Below are positions 15,675 through 45,871 of a stretch of DNA of 64,000 nucleotides, piece by piece. The translations under genes were made by a program, and so were the position numbers. The stretch lies in IMG/VR virus record IMGVR_UViG_3300043811_000032, positions 34,692 through 98,691 of that record, one strand, 5' to 3'. The notes below the pieces were generated by a model. It was not told the DNA's origin, searched no databases, and saw nothing but the letters and a program-made list of their open reading frames with translations. Numbering within the stretch: the first letter of the stretch is position 1; the number at the start of each line of letters is the position of its first letter. The stretch is from a virus.

Positions 15675-16181
15675 CCTGTTTCGCCCGCTGCCCGATGGCG
15701 TGGTCGGCTTCACCACCACCCCTACGCCGTGCCCGTTCTTCTCCGCCTCGATCTTCGCCGCTCGGCCATTGCGGTACTCCTCGATCTGTGCCGCCCGCAG
15801 CTCCGCCGCCTTCGCCTTCGCCGCCTTGCGCAGCTCACGCCGGATCTCTTTCGCCTCCAGCTTGGCTCGTGCCTCGTCCTGCCGAGCCCGCCGCTTCTCC
15901 GCGATGCTGCGCAGGCGCTTGTCCTGCAGGTTCTGCGGCTCCTCCCAGTAGGCTGTCGCCGAGACCTGCGCGACGATCTCCCGCACCCGCAGGGCATCGT
16001 CGTTGAAGTACTCCACCACCTTGTCGCAGTGGGCGATCAGCCGATGCCCCGGTTGGTAGCAGCCGAGCAGGTAAGCCAGCAGCTCCGCCTCGTCCTCGGT
16101 CACCTGCAGCGGGCGCCACTGTGGCTGGAGGACGTAGCCCGTGGTCTGCTTCTTCTGGTGCTTGCGCTTCTTGCGTGGCAT
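15480..16181 (-). CDS. Hypothetical coiled-coil protein
   Basis: A 233-residue protein with a very basic N-terminus (MPRKKRKHQKKQTTG), a folded section to about residue 85, then a long Arg/Lys/Glu/Ala helix (residues 85-145) and a low-complexity tail. ATG 16181 overlaps the methyltransferase stop as TGATG. The last 65 codons lie antisense to the sigma-like gene, so the true functional end is uncertain. Function unknown. Confidence 0.5.
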   Translation of the reverse strand: MPRKKRKHQKKQTTGYVLQPQWRPLQVTEDEAELLAYLLGCYQPGHRLIAHCDKVVEYFNDDALRVREIVAQVSATAYWEEPQNLQDKRLRSIAEKRRARQDEARAKLEAKEIRRELRKAAKAKAAELRAAQIEEYRNGRAAKIEAEKNGHGVGVVVKPTTPSGSGRNRSKAEQARVAQEDVVQQPVEGGAGHLEQPSSTAPPAVGTAGADLGGNEVQHLPVEERDGDGEGVG

Positions 16182-18421
16182 CACTTCCTCTTGGGTATGA
16201 GGTGGCGATACGCAGGATACTTGTACAGGGCTCCCTCTATCCGTGGCACAGCGTTACAGCGCAGATATCGCTCCGATAGGTCGATCCCTACCGAATGTCG
16301 GCCGTGGTCGATACTGACCTCGCACGTAGTACCGCTCCCACAGAAGGGGTCCATAACTACGCACGGCACCACGTCGTAGTCGTAGCCGCAATGGCAACCC
16401 GGCTTCCAGCCCACCGTCTTCACCTCGACGCCGGCCACCGAGTTGGCGCAGCTGTTGCCCGTGCCCTCCTCGCCGGTCCGCTTGACGTAGTCGTTGGGTC
16501 GCTCCCGCTTCAGCTTCTTCTCCTCTGTCACCCGCTGCCACGGTGTGCCGCAGAAGCCGCAGGCGCCCTTCGCACTAGTGCCGGCGAGGATGCACGGCTC
16601 GATCAGTTTAGGTGGAAACGTGGCGAAGTGGGCACCAGGGTATCCGCCTGCACTAATAAGCCATACTGACCTCTTGTTCCGATTTGGTACACGGCCTAAT
16701 ACCGCTGAGGCGTGGTCTTCGTTGTGCGACACCTTCCCGTCGAACTCAGTGGACGCTTGCTTCGGAGCAAGCGTTCGAGGAGGTAAGTTAGCTGTGTCTG
16801 CCGGCTCCTTGATCGCCTCCGCGTCATAGAAGTAGTCCATCCCCTTCGTCAGCAGGAACACGTACTCATGCGCCTTGGTGCAACGGTTCCGCACGCTCTC
16901 GGGCATCGGCGACGGCTTGCTGTTATGGGTCAACACACCCGAAGCCAGTGCGAGCAGGTGTGGCTCGTCCTCAACGCCCAGTTCGTACACGTATCGCGAC
17001 TTCGCCTTGCGGACCTCCACAACCTCCAGCCGGTCCTTCTCGTTCCAGTGCCCGCTTCGTGCCTTCCTGATCTCCCCCTTGTATCCTTTCCGCGGTTTGC
17101 CTTTGTATATCCCGACACACGGATTCAATGTCAAGCAGTAGCCAAGCCGAGCGCAGACTGTCCGCAGATCCCTTTCCAAGTTAGCGTTCCTTGTGAACCC
17201 GAGTCGCCAGCGAACACCACCGTCGCTACCGTCTCCACTCAGGTAGCCGTCCAGCATCGCCTCCAAAAAGTCGTTGCCATACCGCCACACTACCGGCGAG
17301 AAGCCCTTGTCGTAAGCATCGACACCACTTACCAACTCCCTGATGACAGCACAGATTAACTTGCCATATACTCGGATGGTCTGATTGTTGCCGTCTACAG
17401 TCAACGTGGCAGAACCGCCGTAGTCCTCAGCAATCTTCTTTACAAACTCCCACCTGCTTACTTCGTTGACATGGCCCGACAGGCTGAACTTGTCCTTCCT
17501 ATCTCGCGTAACACCGCTGCCTTCGGCGATGTAGAGCCCTGCCAACCATGCCGCATCAAGCCCTACGTGTGACGGATCTCTTGGTTCCTTTGGTGCCGGC
17601 AGGCGACAGCCTTCCAGTACATCGCCAACCCTAATGTCTTTGGATTCAACAAGACCACGATCCTTTACTGGGAACCTATGCGTTGGCGTGCAAGAAATGC
17701 GCTCACCACTTCTAAGCACTAGCGTCCTCTCATCTCCGCACCGTGGCGACTTGCTCATCCCCTTGAGCTGTGTCCACTTATTGCCGTTCCATAGTTTGAC
17801 CGTGCTCGGTTTGAGCCGGTACAGATCCTTGAGTGTCATTGGCATGTCGCCCTTCTGCGTGCGAGCGTAGACCCACGTGCCACCACTCAGGCACCAAATT
17901 ATGTCCTGTCGCAGCACCCATCCATCAGCTTGCAACGCGAGGGCGACGCGCCACGGGACGCCGACGAGGTTGCCTGATCTTAAGCCGCTGGTGCCTCCGT
18001 CTTTTGGCCACGAGCCGGCCGATTCCGACTGCTTATCGTTCTCGAACTTCTTGCCAAAGTAGCGTTCGTTGAACCCGCTTTTCACGTCTCCACCACCTCC
18101 CGCTCCGCCGTAACTGTCACCTAAATTAAGCCATAGCACCCCGTCGTCCCGCAGCACCCGCCGCACCTCGCGAAACACCTCGACCATCGTGGCGACAAAC
18201 TCCTGCGGTGTCTTCTCACTGCCGATTTCCTGATGCTTGCTATCGTGCCCGTCCTCTAAGTACGAGCGGAGGCCCCAATAAGGCGGACTAGTCACGACAC
18301 AGTGAACGCTCTGGGTCTTGAGCCCGCGCAGGACGTCTGTGACGTTGCCGTGATATATCTTCACGGTCTCTTGGTCCGAGGTCATCCAGTAGGGCGGCAC
18401 TGCCCTGACGTGTATCGGCAT
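16181..18421 (-). CDS. DNA N4-cytosine/N6-adenine methyltransferase containing an intein
   Basis: A 746-residue precursor whose extein is a 422-residue type II DNA methyltransferase. The catalytic motif IV is TSPPYWGLR near residue 45. A DIIW...SKPSPMPESV target-recognition segment is split by the intein, and the SAM-binding motif I is DPFCGSGTT near the C-terminus. This permuted order (motif IV first) is typical of beta-class enzymes. The SPPYW form favours N4-cytosine, but N6-adenine is possible. No cognate restriction gene is nearby, so it may protect phage DNA. The ATG overlaps the primase stop as TAATG. Confidence 0.85.
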   Translation of the reverse strand: MPIHVRAVPPYWMTSDQETVKIYHGNVTDVLRGLKTQSVHCVVTSPPYWGLRSYLEDGHDSKHQEIGSEKTPQEFVATMVEVFREVRRVLRDDGVLWLNLGDSYGGAGGGGDVKSGFNERYFGKKFENDKQSESAGSWPKDGGTSGLRSGNLVGVPWRVALALQADGWVLRQDIIWCLSGGTWVYARTQKGDMPMTLKDLYRLKPSTVKLWNGNKWTQLKGMSKSPRCGDERTLVLRSGERISCTPTHRFPVKDRGLVESKDIRVGDVLEGCRLPAPKEPRDPSHVGLDAAWLAGLYIAEGSGVTRDRKDKFSLSGHVNEVSRWEFVKKIAEDYGGSATLTVDGNNQTIRVYGKLICAVIRELVSGVDAYDKGFSPVVWRYGNDFLEAMLDGYLSGDGSDGGVRWRLGFTRNANLERDLRTVCARLGYCLTLNPCVGIYKGKPRKGYKGEIRKARSGHWNEKDRLEVVEVRKAKSRYVYELGVEDEPHLLALASGVLTHNSKPSPMPESVRNRCTKAHEYVFLLTKGMDYFYDAEAIKEPADTANLPPRTLAPKQASTEFDGKVSHNEDHASAVLGRVPNRNKRSVWLISAGGYPGAHFATFPPKLIEPCILAGTSAKGACGFCGTPWQRVTEEKKLKRERPNDYVKRTGEEGTGNSCANSVAGVEVKTVGWKPGCHCGYDYDVVPCVVMDPFCGSGTTCEVSIDHGRHSVGIDLSERYLRCNAVPRIEGALYKYPAYRHLIPKRK
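16922..17893 (-). mobile_element. Intein with LAGLIDADG-type domain in the DNA methyltransferase
   Basis: A 324-residue insertion at DIIW/SKPSP. It starts with Cys1 (CLSGGTWVYAR, block A) and has RISCTPTHRFPV as block B with the TxxH. Two LAGLIDADG-like helices follow (AAWLAGLYIAEGS and EAMLDGYLSGDGS), then VYELGVEDEPHLLA as block F, and it ends LTHN before Ser+1. All splicing residues (Cys1, block B His, penultimate His, terminal Asn, Ser+1) are present, so it should splice. The homing endonuclease looks intact. Confidence 0.9.
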
Positions 18422-21400
18422 TAGCCTTCTCCCATTACTTCGCGGTACAACCCCGCCATCCTTCGGGTAAGTCTCCACCGAGTCCTCAGATTGACTCCGT
18501 TCTTCAGCGGCTGATGCGGCTCGCAGGCACCGATCCGCTTGAGGAACTTGAGCAGCCCGCGTTCCTTGTCCTCTCCTTCGTGAGTTAGGTGGATGAGTGC
18601 AGCCACCTCCAGTCCCATGTCCCCCGCCGCTGCCAAATGCCGGATGATCTCGTACGTGCGGCCCCGAGCCGTATCCATCGCCACCCGTCGCACGCGGACC
18701 ATCACCTCGCCGTCAATGGCGGTGCGGTTGAGTACGATGGCGAGGCAGTACGCCAGCTTGCCGATCTGGGACGTGAGCCGAGCACTCATCTCTCGGCTTG
18801 TCTCCTCGTCCTGCTTCTTGCTAGGGCGGGCACGCAGGTACGCCACGAACTTGGCGTAGGCCATGCAGAGCCTTGCCGCCTCGTCGGTCATCGTGATGTG
18901 GGGTAGTAACCTACCCACGTTCTGCCGCAGCCACTCGACGTAGCCGCCGGTGATGCGCTTGGCGGCGATCATTTCCGGCGTGTCGGTGGTCTCGACCTTG
19001 CCATCCACCTCGTATAGGTTCATGCGCACCTGGTTGATCTTCCGCCAGCTGATCTCGTCCTCCAGCGAGTCGTCGATCACGTCCATGATGCGGCAGCACA
19101 GGAACCGCTCGCCCAGCTCACTGGTGTCCAGCGCACGCAGCGCCCCCGTACCGCAGAGTATCCAGGCGAAGCGGATACCCTCGTAGTCGCGGGACATCTT
19201 GTTGTTGAAAGCCGACCTACCCACCGTGTCGTACAGGTCGCGGGCCTGCCCCAGCACCTGATCGCGGTTAGGTAATGTCAACACCGTGTCGCCATCTTTG
19301 ACAACGAACGCCTTGTCGCGGAGCTTGTTCACCAATCCGAGGTCCTCCGTGCCCTCCTTGTCCGTCTGGTAGCCGCTGTAGAAGCCGCGGAACGTGCTCT
19401 GGGCCTTGACGTACTCGCGAGCCACGCTAATCGCCTCGCACAGGATACTCTTGCCGGTAGACGGAGGCGACACCGCCATGATCCAGATCTGGTCCCCCAC
19501 CACCTTCACCGAGGCGACCGCCGCCATGATGATGCTGAAGCCGTAGTCCAGCCCGTCCGTCCACTTCATCGCCTTGCGCCACGCCTGCACGCAGTCCCGC
19601 CAGTTGTCGCAGGGCTGGGTCGTGAGTAGGTCGCGGTGTGGCCCGGCCTCGCTCTTGACCAGCCACTCGGCAGGCACCGGCTCGATCCGGTCGTTGAGCC
19701 TCTCCTGTAGTTCGATGCGCTCCTCCGCCGTCGAGCCCTGCGTGAGCCAGTCCCGCACGTCGTAGCCGCTCGGCAGCTCGGGGTCGTAGCCGTCCGCGCC
19801 CCAGCGAATGTACCTGATCTCCTTGGGTGGTGCCTCCTGGCTCGCCAACAGCCGGGCGACGCGCTCCATGCCGTCTAGTCCGGCCTTGGTGACTCGTCCC
19901 TGATGCTCGCGAGGATGGTCGTTGTCGAACAGTAGTACCACCGTCTTGCCTGCCAGCAGCGAGGCCCAGCTCGGGTTGAACACGCTACAGCCCGGCACCG
20001 CCAGCACGTTCGCCCGCTGGCCGAGTCCCGCACTGCGAGCCGCCTGTAGCGTCTCCCACCACGCCATCCCGTCCCACGGCCCTTCACAATTTCCAGACAC
20101 CACCGCCTTGCCGTTCCGGCGGACCACCACAAACCCAGTGGAGACAGTCACGCAGTAGACCTTACCTTTGTAGTGCTCTCTAGTCGGTTTATTGACAATC
20201 ACTCTCCAAGGTTTCTTGATCATACAGAGGACGTACTGGTCGTTGCAGTTCTCCTCCTCGGACGGTATGCGGTTGGTACCGCTGGAATAGCCGGAGATCA
20301 CAGCCATCCTTGAGATGACGTCTGCGTTGGCAGCGTTGGAGGTAAAATACCGGATACAGTTCTGGCCCTTGTCGCCGTCCCAATGAGGAATCTCCTCAAT
20401 GATAGTCTGGCGGGTCTTGAGCGGCCAAGCTAGCTCCTTGCCTGTCCATATCTTCTTAGGGCAGCATTCCAATAAGAATTGAGCCTCCGGCTGTCGCTTG
20501 TCTATGAGGATAGACTCAGACTCGTCCACGCTCCCCCAGTGGTGAGTCTTGAACTTTATGCCAAGTTCGTTGAGCAGGCTCTTTAGCCGCTCTTTCTTGC
20601 GATCCTTGTAGAAGCTGAACTCGATCTGGAATCCGCCTCGGATACAACCGTCGGCTACGAAAGCCGTCAACAACTTGGCTTGCGTTTCTGATGGACCTGC
20701 TTCTTCCCCCACCATAGTACCGCTGACTGGCAACTGGAAGCCGGCACCAACGTCTTGGGCCTTTCTGACTTGGCTCTTGGTAGCCTGCTGCCTTTTGCAC
20801 AGCATCCTGTGGTCTGGCGTAACCAACAGGTCACACCAGCGGCTGGCGAAGTTGACCATCTCTCCGTGGAAATCTAGGACCTGCTTGGCTCTAGGCCGCT
20901 CGAACCTTATGCTCTCGTTCTCTGGTTTGTAGGAGGCCACTCTGTCCTCCTCTCCCAATTCCTTGAACAACATCCATCCACGGTTAGTAAGGATCTCTGT
21001 GTCGTCCGAGTAGCAGACGTAACACATCTCCTTGCTCGCGTCGAACAGCGGCACGCCATGAAGCCCGTGTCCAACGTGCTCTCCGCCTGATAGAGTCGTA
21101 GGAAGCAACTTCATTCTCTTACTTGTATAGTCTCGCACGTAGCGGTACAGCTGGACGAGGTTGCCCTCGCGGTTGTACCCCGGCAGCGCGTAGTCAAGAG
21201 TGAGCGGATGCCGAATAGCTCCCCACTTGACGAGCGTGTCGACACTGAGCAGCTTGCGATCCTCGGCCAGCTCCTCCAGATCCGTCGGCGGTTGTGCCGC
21301 AGCCCACAGCTCGCGTAGGAACGTAACCTGGTTACCAGCACGTCCGCAGACCTTACAGTCCCAGAGCCCGCTCGCTGTTGCCACTCGCCATTTGAGCTTA

Positions 21401-21510
21401 CCGCAGAACGGACACTCTGCCTCCGACTGGTCCTGCCCCTCCCACGACAGGTCCATCCCGTGTTGGACGTATGCTTTCAATACCGCAGGAACGGTCTTGA
21501 CGACAGGCAT
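18421..21510 (-). CDS. TOPRIM primase-helicase containing an intein
   Basis: A 1029-residue precursor. The N-terminus has a CHC2-like zinc ribbon (CPFCGK at 33-38 and CKVCG at 52-56), followed by the TOPRIM domain (CEGPWDG, and FDNDHP near residues 528-533, giving the metal-binding acids). A C-terminal ATPase has Walker A SPPSTGKS (681-688). It should prime and unwind phage DNA. The intein splits TOPRIM between YV and CEGPWDG. The extein is about 720 residues. The ATPase resembles the helicase part of phage primase-helicases, but its exact superfamily cannot be fixed by eye. ATG 21510 overlaps the upstream stop. Confidence 0.8.
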   Translation of the reverse strand: MPVVKTVPAVLKAYVQHGMDLSWEGQDQSEAECPFCGKLKWRVATASGLWDCKVCGRAGNQVTFLRELWAAAQPPTDLEELAEDRKLLSVDTLVKWGAIRHPLTLDYALPGYNREGNLVQLYRYVRDYTSKRMKLLPTTLSGGEHVGHGLHGVPLFDASKEMCYVCYSDDTEILTNRGWMLFKELGEEDRVASYKPENESIRFERPRAKQVLDFHGEMVNFASRWCDLLVTPDHRMLCKRQQATKSQVRKAQDVGAGFQLPVSGTMVGEEAGPSETQAKLLTAFVADGCIRGGFQIEFSFYKDRKKERLKSLLNELGIKFKTHHWGSVDESESILIDKRQPEAQFLLECCPKKIWTGKELAWPLKTRQTIIEEIPHWDGDKGQNCIRYFTSNAANADVISRMAVISGYSSGTNRIPSEEENCNDQYVLCMIKKPWRVIVNKPTREHYKGKVYCVTVSTGFVVVRRNGKAVVSGNCEGPWDGMAWWETLQAARSAGLGQRANVLAVPGCSVFNPSWASLLAGKTVVLLFDNDHPREHQGRVTKAGLDGMERVARLLASQEAPPKEIRYIRWGADGYDPELPSGYDVRDWLTQGSTAEERIELQERLNDRIEPVPAEWLVKSEAGPHRDLLTTQPCDNWRDCVQAWRKAMKWTDGLDYGFSIIMAAVASVKVVGDQIWIMAVSPPSTGKSILCEAISVAREYVKAQSTFRGFYSGYQTDKEGTEDLGLVNKLRDKAFVVKDGDTVLTLPNRDQVLGQARDLYDTVGRSAFNNKMSRDYEGIRFAWILCGTGALRALDTSELGERFLCCRIMDVIDDSLEDEISWRKINQVRMNLYEVDGKVETTDTPEMIAAKRITGGYVEWLRQNVGRLLPHITMTDEAARLCMAYAKFVAYLRARPSKKQDEETSREMSARLTSQIGKLAYCLAIVLNRTAIDGEVMVRVRRVAMDTARGRTYEIIRHLAAAGDMGLEVAALIHLTHEGEDKERGLLKFLKRIGACEPHQPLKNGVNLRTRWRLTRRMAGLYREVMGEG
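20089..21015 (-). mobile_element. Intein in the primase TOPRIM motif
   Basis: A 309-residue insertion. It starts with Cys1 (CYSDDTEILTNRGW, block A), has LLVTPDHRMLC as block B, and ends VVRRNGKAVVSGN before Cys+1 of CEGPWDG. The penultimate residue is Gly instead of the usual His, which some inteins tolerate. A degenerate LAGLIDADG-like segment (LLTAFVADGCIRGG) appears once, so homing activity may be reduced. It interrupts the most conserved Glu-containing TOPRIM loop, so priming would depend on splicing. Confidence 0.85.
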
Positions 21511-22058
21511 CAATAGCTCCTTACTTCCCACACGATCATCCGACGTTGGAGTACGCCACAGTGCACGCGATAGTGCGAGAACTCGACCACGTGGTCCTCG
21601 TAGGTATCCAGCAGCTCCATCAGCCAGTCGTAGTCGCCGGGGTCGAGCGTTGTCCGCAGTAACGAGGTAGCAATTATACCGTAAACCTCGGCCGAGCGGG
21701 TGGCTAAAGCGGGCCGCATCGGCATCGGCAACGTGCTGTAGAGCAAATAGAGCCCGCGATTGCTCTGCATCACCTCCCCTTGCAGCACCGTCGTCGCCGT
21801 GGGCGCCATCTCGCTGCAGTACCAGTCCTGCGGATCACTCATCCGTAGCCACAGTCCTCGCACCGCGGAGTAGCTCTGGTCATAGTACGTCGCCCCAGCC
21901 GCCACCCGATTGCGCAGGTGGTAGCTGCCCATCTGGTTAGCCCCACTCTCAAACGCAACGCGGTCGTGCCACGTGTTGGTGCGGTTGCCGAACTCCAGCG
22001 CTTGGTATCGCTGGGTGAAGTCCGTTTTACTTAGCACCGGCGGTCTGCTTGGCCACAT
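21510..22058 (-). CDS. Hypothetical 182-residue protein
   Basis: Located between the thymidylate synthase and primase genes, overlapping both (32 bases at its start, TGATG at its end). Aromatic-rich central region (GATYYDQSYSAVRGLWLRM) and a helical C-terminal half. The start could instead be GTG 22037. Not recognised. Confidence 0.6.
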   Translation of the reverse strand: MWPSRPPVLSKTDFTQRYQALEFGNRTNTWHDRVAFESGANQMGSYHLRNRVAAGATYYDQSYSAVRGLWLRMSDPQDWYCSEMAPTATTVLQGEVMQSNRGLYLLYSTLPMPMRPALATRSAEVYGIIATSLLRTTLDPGDYDWLMELLDTYEDHVVEFSHYRVHCGVLQRRMIVWEVRSY

Positions 22059-28014: not shown

Positions 28015-30140
28015 GCCTCCGCCTCCCCCCAGTTGCTCGGATGATAGTTAATCGCCACGCGGAGGGGCACGCCAATATCCACCCCCGACTCCTCCATCAG
28101 CTTTGCCAGCTTGCGCACCTTGGGCAGGTTCCGCTTGCCGCCGGCTGGGAAGTCGAAGTCGATCTCGTCGTGTACTTGCAGCACCATCCGCCCGTCGAAG
28201 CCGTCCTCGCGGCGCCACTTGTCCAGTTGCTCTCGGCAGCGGATCATAGCCTTGAGTGTGCACCACATCGCCCCGCCCTGCGTCCGGTAGTTCAGCGGGA
28301 TCGTCGGACTGATCTTACCCCACTCGGTCCGAGTGCACATCAGCGGATAACCGTGGTGCGGGTCCACCGTCTTGTCGGGCGGTGTCTCAATGTAGCCGTG
28401 CTTGTTGGCGAAGTCTATGCAGTGCTGGTTCCATCGCGTCAGTTCTTTGAGCTTGTCGCTTACCGCCTTGCGGGCACCCTGCTTGTGGGCAGCTCGGTCC
28501 GCCGTCTCGTCGCCGGCCCCGTATTCATAACTGAACCCGAAGTTCTTGCACCACTGGTACCAGGTCGTGCTATACTTCTTCTTGAACGCCCCCTTGGTAT
28601 CGGCTAGCGGCCAGAACAGGTCAGGGTAGATGATACTGGCATTCATCAAGTGGTAGCTGCCATAATACGGCGGCTCGTCTGGCTTCTCGAACAGGTCTAT
28701 CATTAGCCGCTCGCCAGATTCCCAGGCCGGGATTCTGAGTTCTATGTTTTCATAGTCCAGTGCCCACCATTCGCGCCCTTCGGCTGGACCGAACGCATAC
28801 CGCAGGCTCTGCGTCTCCAAGCCAGTTCCACAACACGCTGAGCAGCCTTCGCCCTCGCACTCGCTGCATTCAGCCTCCTGCTTCGACACGTTCTGGCTGT
28901 TAGGGTTGGATGACGACCAGCGGAGCGTATCCGTGCCAGTCGGTGAGAGCGATGGGTGGATATGATACCAGTCCTCCTTGATTGGTATCCAGAACCGGCG
29001 ATACGCCTCCATGTACGCGACCGACGTATCCCGCTTGCGCTTGCGTTGTATCGCCTTGACGAAGTCTAGTTGCTTACCTTCCAAGGTTAGTTCGTACTTA
29101 TCCATCGCCACCTTGTTCAGCGACGGGTTGCCAGTGTCCGTCCACTCCACCACCGGTAGCTTGAGGTATTGCTGCTTGGGACTACCCTCCTGCGGCTTAC
29201 CGAAGCAGAAGTTCAGCAGCGAGTTGTTGTTCCCGCTCTTGGGCAGTTTCAGGTCGTAGTCCAGCCCTTTGGCTATCGCCACGCACTTGGCCCCTGCCTC
29301 GGCACTCTCCGCCTTGTAGCGCGTCGTCAGCTCCTCCAGCCTCATGCGGTTCAGCGTCACCCCCCGCTGCTCCATCTCGTACGCTATCGGCATCGCCTTC
29401 AAGCGACACTGGTAGATGGCCCACAGCCCGCGCCGCCGTAGCTCCGCCTCCATCACCCGCCACAGGGCTACCGTGGTTGCACTATCGGCGTTGGCGTACT
29501 CGGTGGTGACTGTCCACCACTTGTGGTCCTCCGGTAACTTACGGTACTTAGCCATACACCGCGGCAACCACGTATCGTACTTCCACGTCTTAGCGCCAGC
29601 ACTCGGCATCATCTGGTTGCCGGCGTCGTCGAGCAGGTCCTCCTCGGCGATCCGCCACTTGGCCAGCTCCGAGGCCGGCTTGCCCCGCTTGACCTTGAGC
29701 CGTTCCTGTTGGACGATCCGCCGGCACTCCTTCACCGCGTCCTCCATCCGGTCCTCGTAGGGTTGGATGTCGATGCCGAGGTAGTGCAGCGCGAGGCTTG
29801 TCAAGTCGTGCGGTTGGTTCGATGCGAGCACGTGGGCAGCGATCAAGGTATCGTGCGTGTCCTCCCACCGCCAGTAGTCGCCAAACTGGCGGATTGTGCC
29901 CAGTGCCGACACATCGAATTTTCCGTTCTGCATTACCAAGCCGCCCGTCTCGTTAGGGCTCAGTAACTCCGCCAGCTCGTCTACGTCCTCCTCCGGTATC
30001 TGCGGCTTACGGGTCAGTGGATCTACCATCCATTCCCACCAGCGCTGCTCGCCGTCCTCATCACACGTAGTGATGAAGTAAGGCATCGCGCCATGTCTGA
30101 AATCCACGCCCGTCGTTTCCGAGTCAAGAGCACGTATCAT
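28008..30140 (-). CDS. Family A DNA polymerase with Cys-rich insert
   Basis: A 710-residue PolA-type polymerase. The 3'-5' exonuclease domain has DSETTG (residues 6-11) and VMQNGKFDVSAL (69-80). The palm has TLRWSSSNPNSQNV, motif A LDYENIELR (461-469) and motif C QVHDEIDFD (655-663). The O-helix fits K532-x3-F536-x3-Y540-G, so the residue selecting against dideoxynucleotides is Phe; the usual Arg four residues before the Lys is Tyr. A short CSECEGEGCSACCG segment (425-438) is inserted just before motif A. The ATG overlaps the HNH gene stop. Confidence 0.9.
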   Translation of the reverse strand: MIRALDSETTGVDFRHGAMPYFITTCDEDGEQRWWEWMVDPLTRKPQIPEEDVDELAELLSPNETGGLVMQNGKFDVSALGTIRQFGDYWRWEDTHDTLIAAHVLASNQPHDLTSLALHYLGIDIQPYEDRMEDAVKECRRIVQQERLKVKRGKPASELAKWRIAEEDLLDDAGNQMMPSAGAKTWKYDTWLPRCMAKYRKLPEDHKWWTVTTEYANADSATTVALWRVMEAELRRRGLWAIYQCRLKAMPIAYEMEQRGVTLNRMRLEELTTRYKAESAEAGAKCVAIAKGLDYDLKLPKSGNNNSLLNFCFGKPQEGSPKQQYLKLPVVEWTDTGNPSLNKVAMDKYELTLEGKQLDFVKAIQRKRKRDTSVAYMEAYRRFWIPIKEDWYHIHPSLSPTGTDTLRWSSSNPNSQNVSKQEAECSECEGEGCSACCGTGLETQSLRYAFGPAEGREWWALDYENIELRIPAWESGERLMIDLFEKPDEPPYYGSYHLMNASIIYPDLFWPLADTKGAFKKKYSTTWYQWCKNFGFSYEYGAGDETADRAAHKQGARKAVSDKLKELTRWNQHCIDFANKHGYIETPPDKTVDPHHGYPLMCTRTEWGKISPTIPLNYRTQGGAMWCTLKAMIRCREQLDKWRREDGFDGRMVLQVHDEIDFDFPAGGKRNLPKVRKLAKLMEESGVDIGVPLRVAINYHPSNWGEAEAC

Positions 30141-30733
30141 GGATGTCTCCTTTGTTTGCCGGAGACAATCCTGTTTATAGAATGGTGCCCTACGCCGTAT
30201 TTCTCGGCCAACTCCTTGGCGTTGCTTTCAAGGTAACTCCATCTACGGTAGTCCCTACGGATCTCAGCTATCTGCTCGTTGGTTAACTTAAATCCCCCGT
30301 TCCCAGATTTTCTCTTTCTATCCCAATACGCTTTGCCTTTGGCGGATATAGTCGCACGGGTTTCAGACGAATGCACCATTCCTAGAGCGTGCTGGTTTCC
30401 TGGAAACCCAGGCTTCCTCCCTTTGGCCACTGCGTCCCGCACGTTATCTGAGATGGTGCCTAAAAATAGATGCTTAGGTCTAACACATGCCGGATTGTCA
30501 CACTTGTGTAGAACTTGCAGACCGTCGGGGATTTCTCCGCACTGAACTTGGTATGCAATCCTAGAATATCTACCTGTGCTTATGCCAGGTCCTCGCGCTG
30601 AATTCATAACCCAACATTTCCCGTGTACAGGATGAACAGGTCCGTCTATTCTATTCACCCTGTTATAGAACCTTACCGCCACCGGCGTAGGCTTACTACC
30701 TATATTGCTGTTTGGATGTCTTCGTCTAGCCAT
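30137..30733 (-). CDS. HNH homing endonuclease
   Basis: A 198-residue free-standing HNH nuclease of the HNH_3 type. The active site is VLHKCDNPACVRPKHLFLG (residues 74-92), followed by TISDNVRDAVAKGR. The C-terminal helix-turn-helix (ELAEKYGVGHHSINRIVSGK) is the usual DNA-recognition part. It sits directly upstream of the DNA polymerase gene with ATGA overlap, a common homing location. No intron is evident, because the polymerase reads through intact. AT-richer than the genes around it, consistent with recent arrival. Confidence 0.85.
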   Translation of the reverse strand: MARRRHPNSNIGSKPTPVAVRFYNRVNRIDGPVHPVHGKCWVMNSARGPGISTGRYSRIAYQVQCGEIPDGLQVLHKCDNPACVRPKHLFLGTISDNVRDAVAKGRKPGFPGNQHALGMVHSSETRATISAKGKAYWDRKRKSGNGGFKLTNEQIAEIRRDYRRWSYLESNAKELAEKYGVGHHSINRIVSGKQRRHP

Positions 30734-30820
30734 CGTATCACCTCTCCATACACCCTAGAAATAGAGCGGCAGGCCAGTAGGGTTGCACCGGCTTTTCGGT
30801 AGCGAGCCTAGCCGCTCTTT

Positions 30821-34650: not shown

Positions 34651-35206
34651 TGAGCATCTCCTCTACCGCGTTGGCAACGGTCACTACGGCCCGTTGTATG
34701 AGCAGACCACGTTGAGCTAGGTTGGCACGGATAATCGCCGCAGGGTGCATGATCTCTACCGTCTTGGCGTCGTAGGTCAGGGTCGGCAGCCACTTGGCTG
34801 CGAGTGCTCCCACGGCGACTACCAGCTTGGGCTTGCACAGGTTGATGAACTGCTGAAGTCGGCTGCTGCACGCCTTGATATCAGCCGTCTCGGGCTCACC
34901 GATCTTCATCCCGTCCTCGCTGGTCGGCAAGCACGCCACGAGGTTCGTCAGGGCGTATGTCGGCTTGGGCTCGGGCAACCCTTCCCAGATGCGGTCGATT
35001 ACTGACACTTGAAGTAGCCTACCCGCCGGCCCGACGAATGGCTTGCCTACGGCGTCCTCGCTGGCTCCGGGAGCTTCGCCCGCGAACACTACGTCCGCCG
35101 GCACCGAGCCCCGAGCTAGGACTACGTGTTGCCGCCCCAGCGAGAGCGGGCACTTGGTACAGGCATGCCAGAGGTTCACGTGTTGCATCCACGGGCTAGT
35201 TGGCAT
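34607..35206 (-). CDS. Uracil-DNA glycosylase, family 4/SPO1-like
   Basis: A 199-residue protein with the UDG superfamily layout. Motif 1 is FAGEAPGASEDAVGKPFVGP near residue 41. NLVACLPT follows, then a C-terminal IMHPAAI as motif 2, and CTKCPLS plus later Cys residues could hold the 4Fe-4S cluster of families 4 and 5. It would remove uracil (or a uracil-like base) from DNA. In a phage with a possible 5-hydroxymethyluracil pathway, this enzyme would need to discriminate against the modified base or act on host DNA. Confidence 0.75.
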   Translation of the reverse strand: MPTSPWMQHVNLWHACTKCPLSLGRQHVVLARGSVPADVVFAGEAPGASEDAVGKPFVGPAGRLLQVSVIDRIWEGLPEPKPTYALTNLVACLPTSEDGMKIGEPETADIKACSSRLQQFINLCKPKLVVAVGALAAKWLPTLTYDAKTVEIMHPAAIIRANLAQRGLLIQRAVVTVANAVEEMLNVPSPVAKSRPTPR

Positions 35207-35876: not shown

Positions 35877-36347
35877 TTACAACTTGCCTTCTCGTTTCCG
35901 TCGGGCATACTCAGCTATCATCAATGCATCGCAGGTGCTGAGCGTCACCTTCTCGGCTGGAAAGATCGCCTGACACCGAGATTTCAGCCGGTTCTTGAAC
36001 GCCGTCTTGCTCTCAGTGCGCTTGCGTGGGGTCACGCCCATAGCCTTCTGCCAGACACGGGGCATGACTTCCTCGAAAGGGATCTGGGCGGCTATCAACG
36101 CCATGCGCAGTCCGCCGTAGCCGGCCCCAAACTTGAACATCGCACTACCGATGTTCCCAGCCGAGCCTGGCATGAACCCACCAACCTTCTCTATCACCGC
36201 GAACTTGGTGTCCACGGTCAGGAACCCCTCGACCCACTCCCACACGTCCGCCTCCGTCTTGGGCATGGCGACGGCAGTCACCTTGACCTCGCCGTAGCCG
36301 AGGGCAGCGAGCCCACCACTGGCCCCCGGATCAATTCCTAGATACAT
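35877..36347 (-). CDS. RuvC-like Holliday junction resolvase
   Basis: A 156-residue RNase H-fold resolvase. MYLGIDPGASGGLAAL supplies the first catalytic Asp, AVIEKVGGF the Glu, GLRMALIAAQIPFEEVMPRV the core helix, and TLSTCDALMIAEYARR the final Asp. It would resolve branched replication intermediates before packaging. ATG 36347 has AAAGGA upstream. The decayed HNH gene lies immediately upstream and its remnants run into this start. Confidence 0.8.
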   Translation of the reverse strand: MYLGIDPGASGGLAALGYGEVKVTAVAMPKTEADVWEWVEGFLTVDTKFAVIEKVGGFMPGSAGNIGSAMFKFGAGYGGLRMALIAAQIPFEEVMPRVWQKAMGVTPRKRTESKTAFKNRLKSRCQAIFPAEKVTLSTCDALMIAEYARRKREGKL

Positions 36348-36828
36348 AGTAGTATCCTTTACAGATGCCCGACATCTGCGGCTGGCTAACACCAAACCAC
36401 GCCTGATTTTCCTGGATGCCTCCGTCTAATCTCTCTGCAAGCTGCCGCTTGTTTGTCAGTTAGTAGAGCTGCGTAATGCTTCTCACCACCGTTGTCAGTG
36501 CCGTGGATCTTTTTATCTGCTTCGTTCTCTTTCCTAGTGCCCCACAGCAAGTTTCCAAGGACGTTGTTAGTTCTGTTGTTGTCTAGATGCCGGCATTGCT
36601 GTCCTGGAGCCGGCAGACCTTTCCAAGCAAGCAATACAAAAATATGCACTCCAACCGATTTACTGCCGCCGCCTCCAACATAGAGATATCCGTCGCTGCC
36701 TTTCCAAGCAGCTTTTGGAATCCACACGTCCCATAACCTCTTGTGATCACCTTACCGCAGGCAGATACAGCCCACTTGGGACGGTTAGGCACGGGCCTGA
36801 ATACTATGCCGTTGTGGACTACTGGCAT
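36331..36828 (-). pseudogene. Frameshifted HNH (NUMOD4-like) homing endonuclease
   Basis: Three reading-frame segments line up as one HNH protein. Segment 1 (36828 to about 36730, MPVVHNGIVFRPVPNRPKWA...) is a NUMOD4-like start. Segment 2 (36727 to about 36420) has DGYLYV, CRHLDNNRTNNVLGNLLWGT (the HNH core) and GGEKHYAALLTDKQ. Segment 3, in a third frame to the TGA at 36331, has ENQAWFGVSQPQMSGICKG, a typical terminal helix-turn-helix. Joins need a -1 shift near 36728 and a +1 shift near 36420. No slippery heptamer is present, so decay or sequencing indels are likelier than programmed shifts. Confidence 0.7.
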
Positions 36829-36872
36829 TGATTGCTCCCGATACCTATGAACATGCCGCCCCCGTGGTTTAA

Positions 36873-36959
36873 CACCCGCACCGCTCGGCTTCGTTGCCCG
36901 GCAAGGAGAAGACGCGCGAGCGGCTGCGGGTGAGTTTATTTTGGTTGCCTTGCCGGGCA
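36873..36959. other. Interleaved inverted repeats (possible pseudoknot RNA or DNA structure)
   Basis: Two long pairings interlock. Arm A CACCCGCACCGCTCG (36873-36887) pairs with A' 36917-36932 (15 bp with one bulged C). Arm B TGCCCGGCAAGG (36895-36906) pairs with B' CCTTGCCGGGCA (36948-36959), 12 bp perfect. Order is A-B-A'-B', with linkers of 7, 10 and 15 bases, which is H-type pseudoknot topology on either strand. It lies in a 193-base gap without any ORF, between the RNase H gene stop and the HNH start. It could be an RNA 3' element, a regulatory RNA or a protein-binding cruciform site. Confidence 0.6.
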
Positions 36960-37021
36960 GCGAGATACCTTATACCTAATCGCAAAACAAAAAGGGGGCA
37001 AACGGAGGCGAAATCGTAAAT

Positions 37022-37435
37022 TTATTTTGCGTATGACTTGCTGAGCCGGTCGGCCTCGGCGTTACGCTCGCGGGGCACCCACTCCAGCGTCCAGCCCGCG
37101 TTCAGCTCGGCGAGTAGTTTGCGGATGTGATTGCGCATCCGAGCGAGGTGTGGCTTCTTGCACTTCCAGCGCATGCAGACCTGCTCGACCACGAGCCGGC
37201 TGTCGCCACGGCAGATGAGCGGGGCGGAGATGCCTAGCCCGAGGAAGTAGCGTAATGCCTCCCCCAGTGCCGCGTACTCGGCCACGTTGCAGGTCGCCTC
37301 GGGACCGCGGCAGTACTCGCCGTGATCCGATGCCACCTCGTAGCCGTTGCCGTTCAGCAACCGCCACCCGAAGCTAGCGATGCCGCCAGGGTTGAAGCTG
37401 CATGCCCCGTCAAAGTAGATTACCCAAGGTTCCAC
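37022..37435 (-). CDS. Ribonuclease HI-like protein
   Basis: A 137-residue RNase HI fold. VIYFDGACSFNPGG holds the first Asp, CNVAEYAALGEALRYF the Glu, CRGDSRLVVEQV the second Asp and RERNAEADRLS the last Asp. It would remove RNA primers. GTG 37435, two bases after the upstream stop with GAGGGCG before it, gives the classical start; an ATG at 37462 is an alternative that overlaps the small upstream gene. Confidence 0.8.
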   Translation of the reverse strand: MEPWVIYFDGACSFNPGGIASFGWRLLNGNGYEVASDHGEYCRGPEATCNVAEYAALGEALRYFLGLGISAPLICRGDSRLVVEQVCMRWKCKKPHLARMRNHIRKLLAELNAGWTLEWVPRERNAEADRLSKSYAK

Positions 37436-37437
37436 GA

Positions 37438-37560
37438 CTATCGCCCTCTCTTGTCTTGCCATTTGCGTTTGTGATGTAGACCTACCCACGGCTTACTCTT
37501 GCTCCGCTTGGTCCTGTTACCCTTACGCTTCTCTACCGGCTTGTCTACTCCCTTAGTCAT
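37438..37560 (-). CDS. 40-residue Lys/Arg-rich peptide
   Basis: MTKGVDKPVEKRKGNRTKRS..., about 40 percent Lys plus Arg, with AGGAGACG upstream. It is the first gene of the leftward replication region. Could bind nucleic acid; unrecognised. Confidence 0.5.
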   Translation of the reverse strand: MTKGVDKPVEKRKGNRTKRSKSKPWVGLHHKRKWQDKRGR

Positions 37561-38388
37561 TATACGTCTCCTATAAGCGCACCCTCCGCCGCCCCGTTTC
37601 CCTTCTCCCCTTACCAGTGCCGTCTCCGCTCGGGGTCGAGCTGCTCTCACCCATATCGGCCTCTCTTGGACTCGCTGGTCTACCGGAGCAGCCTAGCAGA
37701 ACCAGCCACACAGAGAGATCCGAGCGTCTGACGTATACCGTATAAGTACGAGTTTAGGTTTCCGGTCGCCTGTCGAAAAGGAGCGGTTTCCACACGCTGG
37801 CCGTGGCCAGAAGGATCAACGGTCGGTCAAGCCCTTGCCTTCCCGCCGTCCTACGTTACCCTCGGGTGCGTCGCCCGGCTCGCCGGGTCGCACATTTTCT
37901 GGATACGCTTTTGATTCCCCGCGGCACCATACACCTTGTTATCGGTGTCCAGACCTCAGTCGGGTTCCTGTGCCGCCTCCCAGACCCTCGGGAACTGCCT
38001 CCCGACGGTACGCCCTATCTCACCACGTTCGGCCCGAGGTGGTTTGCCAAATACAGGCTAGTGAGCGAGTTACGTGGACCATCGCCCGCCTCGGTTGCAG
38101 CTGCTCGCTGCGCTAACAGTCGCCTACTATAAACTAGCTCGCCGAAAAAAGGGCGGGGAACACGACAAAAATCGAGGTAAAATTTCGTATTACTTGCGTT
38201 TCGTTAGTAATGGAACGTAACAAACTATTCGGCAAAATCCGACGCCCGCCCCGCGTTTGCTATTTACTTAGCCGCCACCGCCGCATTAAAATTGCCCGCT
38301 CGGACCCGGCAAGGTCAACCCGTTAACCACCGAACAGAGCAGCGGTACGTTTTCACCAACCCGTAACCTACTTGTAAGGAGACGTAAG
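37561..38388. other. Divergent intergenic region (828 bp)
   Basis: No ORF here is convincing on either strand, and leftward and rightward transcription diverge from it. It contains a GTGCG/CGCAC plus GCCGGG/CCCGGC hairpin (37866-37893) followed by ATTTTCT, an ATTACT...AGTAAT inverted repeat (38189-38211), and a markedly AT-richer stretch at 38120-38290 (AAAAAAGGG, CAAAAATCGAGGTAAAATTTCG) in an otherwise GC-rich genome. CCCGGCAAGG, also present in the structure at 36.9 kb, recurs near 38307. It probably holds early promoters, and is the best candidate in the window for a replication origin. Confidence 0.5.
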
Positions 38389-40029
38389 ATGCCTACCCCG
38401 CGTAAGCCGAAGACCGAGCCCGAGGTCAAGTACCCCAACCTGCAGCTGGTCGCCTGCGTCCACGACTCGACGCCGACCGCCCCCGGCGTGGAGCGCTGGC
38501 CGGCGATGACGGCGGAGCGGATGAAGGAGCTGCTGGGCTGGGAGGCCGAGACCAGCGGTGAGGGCAGCGACAAGGTCACGTTCAAGGACTCGCTGTTCAC
38601 CGACTACGAGGGCCACGGCGTGCGGCTGCTCAATAACGCCCACAACCGCGACTTCGACGAGCCGCTGGCCAAGCGATACGCTCACGAGCACCTCAATAAG
38701 CACTGGAAGATGAACGGCGAGACGATCATCTTCTCCCGTTACGGTAACGTGGTAAGCGGTCAGCACCGCGGTGTAAGCATCATTCTCGCCGAGCAGCTCC
38801 GCACCAGCGACGCCCTCGAAGGTATGCCCAACAAGGCCAAGAGCCAGAAGCACCACTGGGAGGACGAGGGCTGGACCGGGCCGGTGACGATGGAGTGCCT
38901 GCTGGTATTCGGTGTTGACGAGGCGTCGGAGACCCTGCAGACCCTCGACAACGGGAAGCCGCGGTCGGTCTACGACGTGCTTTGTACGCTAGGGCACTTC
39001 CCGACCCTCAAGCCCAAGCCGCGCAAGGTAGCGGTGAAGGCCCTGGACTTCGCGTTGAAGCTGTTGTGGGAGCGAGCCGGCTACGACGACGCGGCTTGGA
39101 ATCTCTACCACCACGACCGCACCCACGCCGAGACGCTTGACCTGTTCAAGCGGCACAAGCGGATCGAGGCGGCGGTCAAGCACATAGTCAATACCGAGGG
39201 CGATGATGGCCGGCTGATATCCACCTACATCCCGCTGGGCACCGCCGCAGGAGTTATGTACTTGATGGCCGCTAGCGGGACCGCCGACGCCGAGACCAAG
39301 TACCGCCACGGTGACCCGCCCAACGAGCGGATGATCAACTTCGACCACTGGGATAAGGCCGAGCAGTTCTGGACCGACCTCGCGAGCAAGGGTGGCGAGG
39401 CACTGAAGGCGTTGCGGCAGTACATCACGGAGCTGCAGAAGGAGCGGGGCGAGGCGGGCATCACTCGCAAGGAGCGTATCGCCATCTTCGCCAAGGCATG
39501 GGTCGCATACTTGGGCGGCTCGGTGTCCAAGAAGGACTTGCACCTGGAGTACGGCACCAACGAGGCGGGCGAGCCGGTACTGACCGAGCACCCGACGTTC
39601 GGTGGCATCGACTGCGAGGAGGACGCCGACGTACCGAAGCTCAGCCCCGAGGAGCAGGCAGCGGCCAAGGAGCAGCAGAAGCAGGAGCGCATCCAGCGGC
39701 TCAAGGATGCCAACGACAAGAAGAAGGCGGAGAAGGCCACTGCCAAGGAGCAGGCTAACGATGCGGAGAAGGCCAAGCCCCAGACGCGCAAGGAGCTGGA
39801 GGAGTGGAACCGCAAGCAAGCGGAGATGGCTGACCAACAGGCAGCGAACATGATCGAGCAGGCCAATAAGACCGTCCCCACCAACGGCACCAGCGCCCCG
39901 CCGATCCCCCGCGTCAAGGGTGAAGTGCCTGCCCCTGAGCCGGTTCAGTACGACGCGGACGGGAAACCCCCTACACCAGCCAAGAAGCCGCCCGTGCCGC
40001 GGCGGAAGGCGGAGGCGGTGAAGTCGTAG
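38389..40029 (+). CDS. ParB-like domain protein with long coiled-coil tail
   Basis: A 546-residue protein. Residues 105-135 (NGETIIFSRYGNVVSGQHRG) follow the ParB/Srx-like pattern found in phage proteins where a xGQHR loop binds nucleotide or DNA. Residues 410-495 are a Lys/Glu/Ala/Gln-rich coiled coil, and the C-terminus is Pro-rich. AAGGAG precedes the ATG. ParB-type domains occur next to base-modification systems in other phages, so a role in modifying or nicking DNA is possible, as is regulation. First gene of the rightward unit, followed by a terminator. Confidence 0.6.
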   Translation: MPTPRKPKTEPEVKYPNLQLVACVHDSTPTAPGVERWPAMTAERMKELLGWEAETSGEGSDKVTFKDSLFTDYEGHGVRLLNNAHNRDFDEPLAKRYAHEHLNKHWKMNGETIIFSRYGNVVSGQHRGVSIILAEQLRTSDALEGMPNKAKSQKHHWEDEGWTGPVTMECLLVFGVDEASETLQTLDNGKPRSVYDVLCTLGHFPTLKPKPRKVAVKALDFALKLLWERAGYDDAAWNLYHHDRTHAETLDLFKRHKRIEAAVKHIVNTEGDDGRLISTYIPLGTAAGVMYLMAASGTADAETKYRHGDPPNERMINFDHWDKAEQFWTDLASKGGEALKALRQYITELQKERGEAGITRKERIAIFAKAWVAYLGGSVSKKDLHLEYGTNEAGEPVLTEHPTFGGIDCEEDADVPKLSPEEQAAAKEQQKQERIQRLKDANDKKKAEKATAKEQANDAEKAKPQTRKELEEWNRKQAEMADQQAANMIEQANKTVPTNGTSAPPIPRVKGEVPAPEPVQYDADGKPPTPAKKPPVPRRKAEAVKS

Positions 40030-40198: not shown

Positions 40199-40426
40199 AT
40201 GAGATGCGAACACAAAGGCTGCGGCAACGAAGTACCCAAGCGGCGCCGCGGGCGTCCTCGCAAGTACTGCGACACCTGCCAAGCCCTGATGCTCAGGGAG
40301 AAGTCAGAGTCGCAGGCCGCTACCAGACGCGAGCTACGCCGCAAGCGTTGGAAGCAAGAAGGCAGGCAGACCTGCCCCACGTGCGAACAGTTACTACCCA
40401 AGTCCCGGCAAGGAGTACAGCGATGA
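40199..40426 (+). CDS. Small zinc-ribbon protein with AT-hook
   Basis: A 75-residue protein: CEHKGCGNEV, then RRRGRPRKYC with the RGRP core of an AT-hook, CDTCQAL and CPTCEQL. It should bind DNA, with zinc holding the Cys pairs. It has no upstream ribosome site and appears leaderless. Its stop overlaps the helicase start as ATGA, so it is coupled to that gene. Confidence 0.65.
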   Translation: MRCEHKGCGNEVPKRRRGRPRKYCDTCQALMLREKSESQAATRRELRRKRWKQEGRQTCPTCEQLLPKSRQGVQR

Positions 40427-44776: not shown

Positions 44777-45087
44777 GCGTTGCCGCCGTTGCTGGCGTCG
44801 GTCAGTGCCACGCCCACGACCGTGTTCCAGCTACCGGTGGGGGTCGGCCACTGCACGGCGGTATTGTTCCAGCTGACACCGCCCGACGCCCCAGCGTAGT
44901 TGATAGGGGACGGGTTCAGCTGGGCACGCTGGTAGCCGCCGCCACTGGGCTCGCTGATGGTGCTGCCAGTGGCGTCAGGGTCCGGCCACGCAGTCAGCAG
45001 CGCGAAGTAAATGTTGCTGGGGAACGTGAACGTCGTGCCCTGGAGCAGGTTGTTCAGGACCCCGTTGCGGAAGTAATCAAACAACAT
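44671..45087 (-). CDS. Virion/tail protein, hypothetical
   Basis: A 138-residue protein ([20 protein letters not shown]...) whose order - a start helix, [55 protein letters not shown] - matches small phage tail or fibre-like proteins that form beta-rich domains. No strong ribosome site precedes the ATG, and it is separated from the other structural genes by the prepilin. Likely part of the tail tip. Confidence 0.6.
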
Positions 45088-45124
45088 GGGAGTTCAGTTC
45101 TTCTCTTCTTATAAGGAGTTTGTC

Positions 45125-45871
45125 ATGCGTCGCAAGGGGTTCACTCTGATCGAGCTGCTGGTGGTGATTGCCATCATTGGCGTGCTGGTTGCCATGTTGA
45201 TGGTAGCCGTGCAGAAGGCGAGGGAGGCAGCGAATCGCATCAGCTGCGTCAACAATCTGAAGCAGATCGGTCTGGCCTGCCACGTCTACCACGACGCGGT
45301 GCTGACCATGCCGACGGAGCAACCGACTACGGGCACCGCGACATCGCTGTACACGACCTTGTTGCCTAATATTGAGCAGCAGAATCTGTACAACCAGATC
45401 GTCGGAGGCAGCGGCACTCCGGTCGGGCTGAAGATTTACACGTGCCCGAGCCGACGCACTCCCACCCAACCCTTCCGGGACTATGTCTACTACAACCCGA
45501 CCGGCTTGGGGCAATCGAGCGTCTTCGGTGCCAAGGGCGGCGTGTCGCTGGGCATCCTGACGAACGCTAACGGAGCGAGCAACACGGCCCTGCTGGCCCA
45601 CGTGTTCTTAGCACCGTCTTCCTATGGTCAACTGGACCCGAGCGGCGGGGGCTGGAACACTATGAACAACACAGCGTCCTCGGCCACGCAACAGCAGGAT
45701 AGTAACTCAAGCGGGTCAGCGGGTCTTGGCGGGCCACACCCCAACACCGATCCGATGCTTTTCGCGGACGGCCACGCGCAGAACATCGCCTTCCAGTGGT
45801 GCACCGCCAACCCGAACCCGGCACAGTATATGTGGAACTACCTCAACACCAACCCCTACGCGCTGCCATGA
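45125..45871 (+). CDS. DUF1559-type prepilin with H-X9-DG motif (planctomycete family)
   Basis: A 248-residue protein. It begins with a class III-like prepilin signal: [19 protein letters not shown], with Gly before the cleavage site and Phe/Glu at +1/+5. [16 protein letters not shown] is the DUF1559 start. The C-terminus holds H, nine residues, then DG ([14 protein letters not shown]), the H-X9-DG domain. These families are expanded in Planctomycetes. AAGGAG precedes the ATG. In phage it may insert into or mimic the host's pilus-like surface. It looks transferred from a host gene. Confidence 0.85.

Follow-up and report, generated by a model that had tools for sequence, protein, structure and literature searches.

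Two inverted repeats, one of 15 bp with a single bulge (stem A) and one of 12 bp without mismatches (stem B), were found to interlock in the order A-B-A'-B' inside one 193-bp intergenic gap of a viral DNA stretch of 64,000 nucleotides, here called the window (positions 34692 to 98691 of a virus record 98,691 bases long). The interlocked pair is non-random in sequence. The best explanation, which we hold tentatively, is that the element acts in cis as a folded part of the mRNA and belongs to the cassette of the HNH endonuclease gene that it precedes. The features are collected in Table 1.

Table 1. Positions, in window coordinates, of the repeat arms, the adjoining genes, and a second structured RNA
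Feature	Position	Strand	Remarks
Arm A, CACCCGCACCGCTCG	36873-36887		3' arm of second stem on minus (operon-sense) strand
Arm B, TGCCCGGCAAGG	36895-36906		Past one mismatch reaches 36891
Arm A', CGAGCGG-c-TGCGGGTG	36917-36932		Bulged base at 36924
Arm B', CCTTGCCGGGCA	36948-36959		Past one mismatch reaches 36963
Gene-free gap	36829-37021	Minus-strand operon	193 bp, 55% G+C, no credible genes (ORF lists)
RNase HI-type gene	37022-37489	-	PF13456 E 2e-16, PHROG 531; upstream of element
Decayed HNH endonuclease gene	36348-36828	-	PF13392, PHROG 1492; ATG start 36828
RuvC-like Holliday junction resolvase gene	35877-36353	-	PHROG 1770 E 3e-21; ATG within about 36345-36348
int-alpA RNA (RF02996)	30751-30818	-	42.1 bits, above gathering score

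The arms and coordinates, the single bulge, and the lack of credible genes in the gap were all as the preliminary description had given them, and the H-type topology that it gave for either strand holds as a statement about complementarity. On the plus strand, the loops measure 7 nt from A to B, 10 nt from B to A', and 15 nt from A' to B'. When one mismatch is allowed, stem B grows to 16 positions (36891-36906/36948-36963) that are 94% complementary. Each B arm also holds a near palindrome, TTGCCCGGCAA at 36894-36904 in arm B and TTGCCGGGCAG at 36950-36960 in arm B'.

To judge the pair against chance, we simulated 300 windows of 64 kb under order-3 and local order-1 composition models. None of the 300 contained an interlocked pair in which each stem reached 12 bp, and pairs of at least 10 bp appeared 0.01 to 0.07 times per window. 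In the real window, stem B is the longest perfect stem spanning up to 120 nt, and stem A is the sole bulge-tolerant stem of at least 15 bp. A wider comparison of 64 non-redundant phage loci (495 kb) gave seven interlocked pairs at 9 bp against a simulated mean of 3.2, two against 0.36 at 10 bp, two against 0.14 at 11 bp, and one against 0.01 at 12 bp. These results bear out the earlier claim that two long interleaved pairings are unlikely by chance, in that the pair lies beyond the composition null; since such a null omits the inverted repeats made by replication errors and understates real inverted repeats, "very unlikely by chance" does not mean "selected."

The genes around the element run leftward, from the RNase HI-type gene through the element to the broken HNH gene, the RuvC-like resolvase gene, and what we take to be, by eye from its sequence, a uracil-DNA glycosylase-like gene. 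The element starts 62 nt past the RNase H stop and lies 45 nt from the HNH start codon, with the RNase H gene before it and the decayed HNH gene after it, as had been claimed. Two breaks interrupt the HNH gene: its homology to an intact HNH gene of the same record (L023:1216-1887) falls into three pieces, in frames 1, 3, and 1, and its N-terminus (MPVV...) matches that of the intact gene. A rightward gene starts at 38389, and the composition skew changes sign near 38 kb. Elsewhere in the window, an ORF at 45086-45871 (plus strand) resembles, by eye, the prepilin-like DUF1559 proteins typical of Planctomycetes, which is a hint at the host, and two long minus-strand ORFs (16181-18478 and 18421-21531) have apparent intein-like insertions (CLSGGTWVYA..., CYSDDTEILTNRGW...), also noted by eye.

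Relatives were sought in viral contigs with RuvC as the anchor, which yielded 80 viral loci. Nine of them (L030, L031, L033, L035, L036, L037, and L042-L044) share a homologous small ORF upstream of RuvC, directly so in eight (the exception is L036), and the divergent gene on the other side was also found in four of the nine (L037 and L042-L044). This conserved ORF encodes about 65 to 98 amino acids, and the phage RuvC gene and then a uracil-DNA glycosylase-like gene follow it. Upstream of RuvC in these nine loci we found no RNase H gene, no HNH gene, and no interlocked stems, and a search of the window virus did not turn up the small ORF. Because all three are absent from the loci that have the small ORF instead, the RNase H gene, the element, and the HNH gene are, judged by gene order, an accessory block specific to the window virus; the presence of the small ORF in its place in relatives suggests that its three parts came or went together. 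In L041, an HNH gene lies just after RuvC, which suggests that HNH genes have visited the RuvC neighborhood more than once.

Searches for a second copy of the element gave nothing of the kind. The arm patterns had no match in the viral or bacterial contig collections, which may leave out near-identical records, and blastn searches with the region and with the gap against phages and plasmids returned short chance matches only. With RNase H as the bait, no close relative was found in viral and bacterial genomes, and eight related virus records had neither the RNase H gene nor the element. Among the 80 loci, no interlocked stems near RuvC were homologous to the element; a pair found after RuvC in L032 (9 and 11 bp, A+T-rich) is compatible with chance. 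The covariance models of Rfam 15 had no match in 36300-38400 at E-values up to 5.

Folding predictions treat the two stems differently. Stem A is strongly predicted to form on the operon-sense (minus) strand, where its pairing probability is near 1 in the nested ensemble. Stem B is absent from that ensemble only because such programs cannot draw pseudoknots. Summing the energies of the separate A and B hairpins, each with its loop cost, which is an approximation and not a pseudoknot calculation, gave -49.0 kcal/mol on the minus strand versus -40.1 kcal/mol for the best nested fold; on the plus strand the advantage was smaller (-52.3 versus -48.2 kcal/mol). Local hairpins inside the near-palindromic B arms compete with stem B on both strands. 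The pairing of stem B is plausible in these models but unproven, because each of its arms is nearly a palindrome. The z-scores of the folds were -2.75 for the plus strand, -1.53 for a 111-nt stretch of the minus strand, and -1.06 for the whole gap on the minus strand.

In the mechanism that we propose, the element would be a structured stretch of a leftward polycistronic mRNA, acquired with the accessory HNH gene and perhaps with the RNase H gene. Transcription would start from the divergent region near 38 kb and pass through the RNase H gene, the element, the HNH gene, the RuvC gene, and onwards. In this mRNA, stem A would be a stable hairpin, and stem B could close it into a pseudoknot some 45 nt before the HNH start codon, a structure that may set the expression of the endonuclease cassette by way of ribosome loading or of mRNA processing and decay. 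The sequence, its place, the broken state of the HNH gene, and the absence of the element from relatives are observed; the transcription, the folding of stem B, and any effect on expression are inferred. In favor of this mechanism are the two stems, which lie far beyond the composition null and are confined to the intergenic gap of a same-strand operon directly before the HNH frame. Several results count against a leader. The z-score of the whole gap on the sense strand is unremarkable, and a scan of the minus strand found no sigma-70-like promoter or terminator. The Shine-Dalgarno bases of the HNH gene have their predicted partners in early HNH codons (36790-36795) and not in the element. The element is single-copy and the adjoining HNH gene is decayed, so the element may be a relic. 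The idea that every HNH gene of the window virus has such a leader was rejected, the third one (L023) having no interlocked repeats upstream.

Stem A may act on its own. As the dominant structure of the nested ensemble, placed between two cistrons of one operon, it could, with minor inner pairs, serve to process the RNase H message or to stabilize its 3' end, as a substrate for an RNase III-like enzyme or a block to 3' exonucleases, with the B-B' pairing incidental. Intergenic processing hairpins are common in phages, as in the early mRNA of T7. However, this leaves a perfect 12-bp stem unexplained, and the distance from the RNase H stop and the lack of a terminator-like T run also speak against it; we regard it as rather unlikely. 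An intrinsic terminator was considered separately and rejected, as no G+C hairpin with a T run was seen at the element on either strand. We are similarly doubtful that the repeats have no present function, being quasi-palindromes made by template switching and drifting in the gap left by a decaying mobile gene. This would fit a single copy missing from all relatives beside an HNH gene broken twice, and near palindromes such as those of both B arms are what template-switching errors produce. Yet stems that had long been neutral should have gained mismatches, and they are intact whereas the HNH gene has gained frame changes.

The B arms could also be read at the DNA level. Their near palindromes, of the form TTGCCsGGCAA/G and 56 bp apart, might be bound by a phage regulator acting as a dimer or by some other DNA-binding protein, with A a separate inverted repeat. 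Both arms having this form speaks for such a site, as does the reappearance of a 10-base half of the near palindrome at 38305, in the divergent promoter region. The recurrence of CCCGGCAAGG near 38307, noted in the preliminary description, was confirmed at 38305-38314, and a further copy lies at 40404-40413, making four matches with the two B arms versus 0.18 expected; this adds little, because the copy at 40404 forms the Shine-Dalgarno region of a downstream gene (AAGGAG, followed by the ATG at 40423) and serves as its ribosome-binding site. Matches to the palindrome are not in excess in the window (3 versus 1.15 expected, one of the three inside a gene), and neither a site cluster nor a regulon is visible. 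We therefore consider an operator distinctly improbable. Two other DNA-level identities were rejected. An integron attC site is an imperfect palindrome that carries an RYYYAAC box at one end and a GTTRRRY box at the other; on the plus strand GTTTAAC comes immediately before arm A, but GAGTTTATTTTGG, which follows A', contains no GTTRRRY. As for iterons or an origin, the neighboring 37440-38390 has no iteron array, and the AT-skew switch at about 38 kb lies outside the element. Of the candidate functional site first described, the topology and the neighbors stood, but none of the roles listed for it (3' protection, cis regulator, landing site, or replication element) gained specific support. 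At present the element is a single-copy feature beside a decayed gene, of use chiefly as a clear, testable candidate.

An mRNA structure of the HNH cassette would have counterparts in other phages. Stable hairpins precede homing endonuclease genes of the T4 group (I-TevI, segB, Aeh1 mobE, and seg43(25)), and the seg43(25) hairpin of Aeromonas phage 25 leaves the ribosome-binding site uncovered (PMC2988022). The element resembles these leaders in being a predicted stable fold that immediately precedes an endonuclease gene on a putative long polycistronic transcript, and it resembles the seg43(25) hairpin in not masking the ribosome-binding site. Unlike them, it has two interlocked stems rather than one hairpin and lies 45 nt from the start codon; its endonuclease gene is broken, no late promoter was seen, and the virus and the sequence are unrelated. 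Since it fails the Shine-Dalgarno sequestration that defines the classical T4 leaders, we do not file it among them.

The closest topological likeness is to the leader pseudoknot of gene 32 (T4, T2, and RB69), a translational operator used autogenously by the single-strand binding protein and perhaps the only viral pseudoknot used in translational autoregulation (PMC3014915). Both have H-type topology upstream of a phage gene in mRNA, as far as the element is transcribed. UUAA(A) repeats follow the gene 32 structure, whereas one UUAAA follows the element, and the next gene here is the HNH gene. The stems of the element are far longer than those of the gene 32 pseudoknot.

Within the same virus, another HNH gene of the window, an intact one (30137-30733), is preceded at a distance of 18 nt by an int-alpA RNA; the family has a further match in a related virus (L010:973-1038, 37.5 bits) and a sub-threshold one in L029. 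Its name suggests an integrase/alpA context; in these viruses the RNA occurs inside phage operons. Like the element, this structured RNA immediately precedes an HNH gene, but its sequence differs and it is a closed multiloop with conserved CUAG/CGAAAAGC; the element gives no match to the family at relaxed E-values. Another RuvC-bearing phage has, between two genes (L071:5805-5858), an unrelated interlocked pair whose stems of 12 and 11 bp are both perfect. A few nucleotides separate its last arm from the Shine-Dalgarno sequence (AAGGAG) of the gene that follows, and the pair had no match in Rfam or by phage blastn. That the element stands for a new class of long-stemmed H-type pseudoknot leaders controlling accessory cassettes in phage operons seems to us very improbable. 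We would place the element in a known, wider group, that of the structured leaders and intergenic elements in phage operons; should the predicted structure fold and be functional, the hairpin leaders known from phage endonuclease cassettes would be joined by a pseudoknot.
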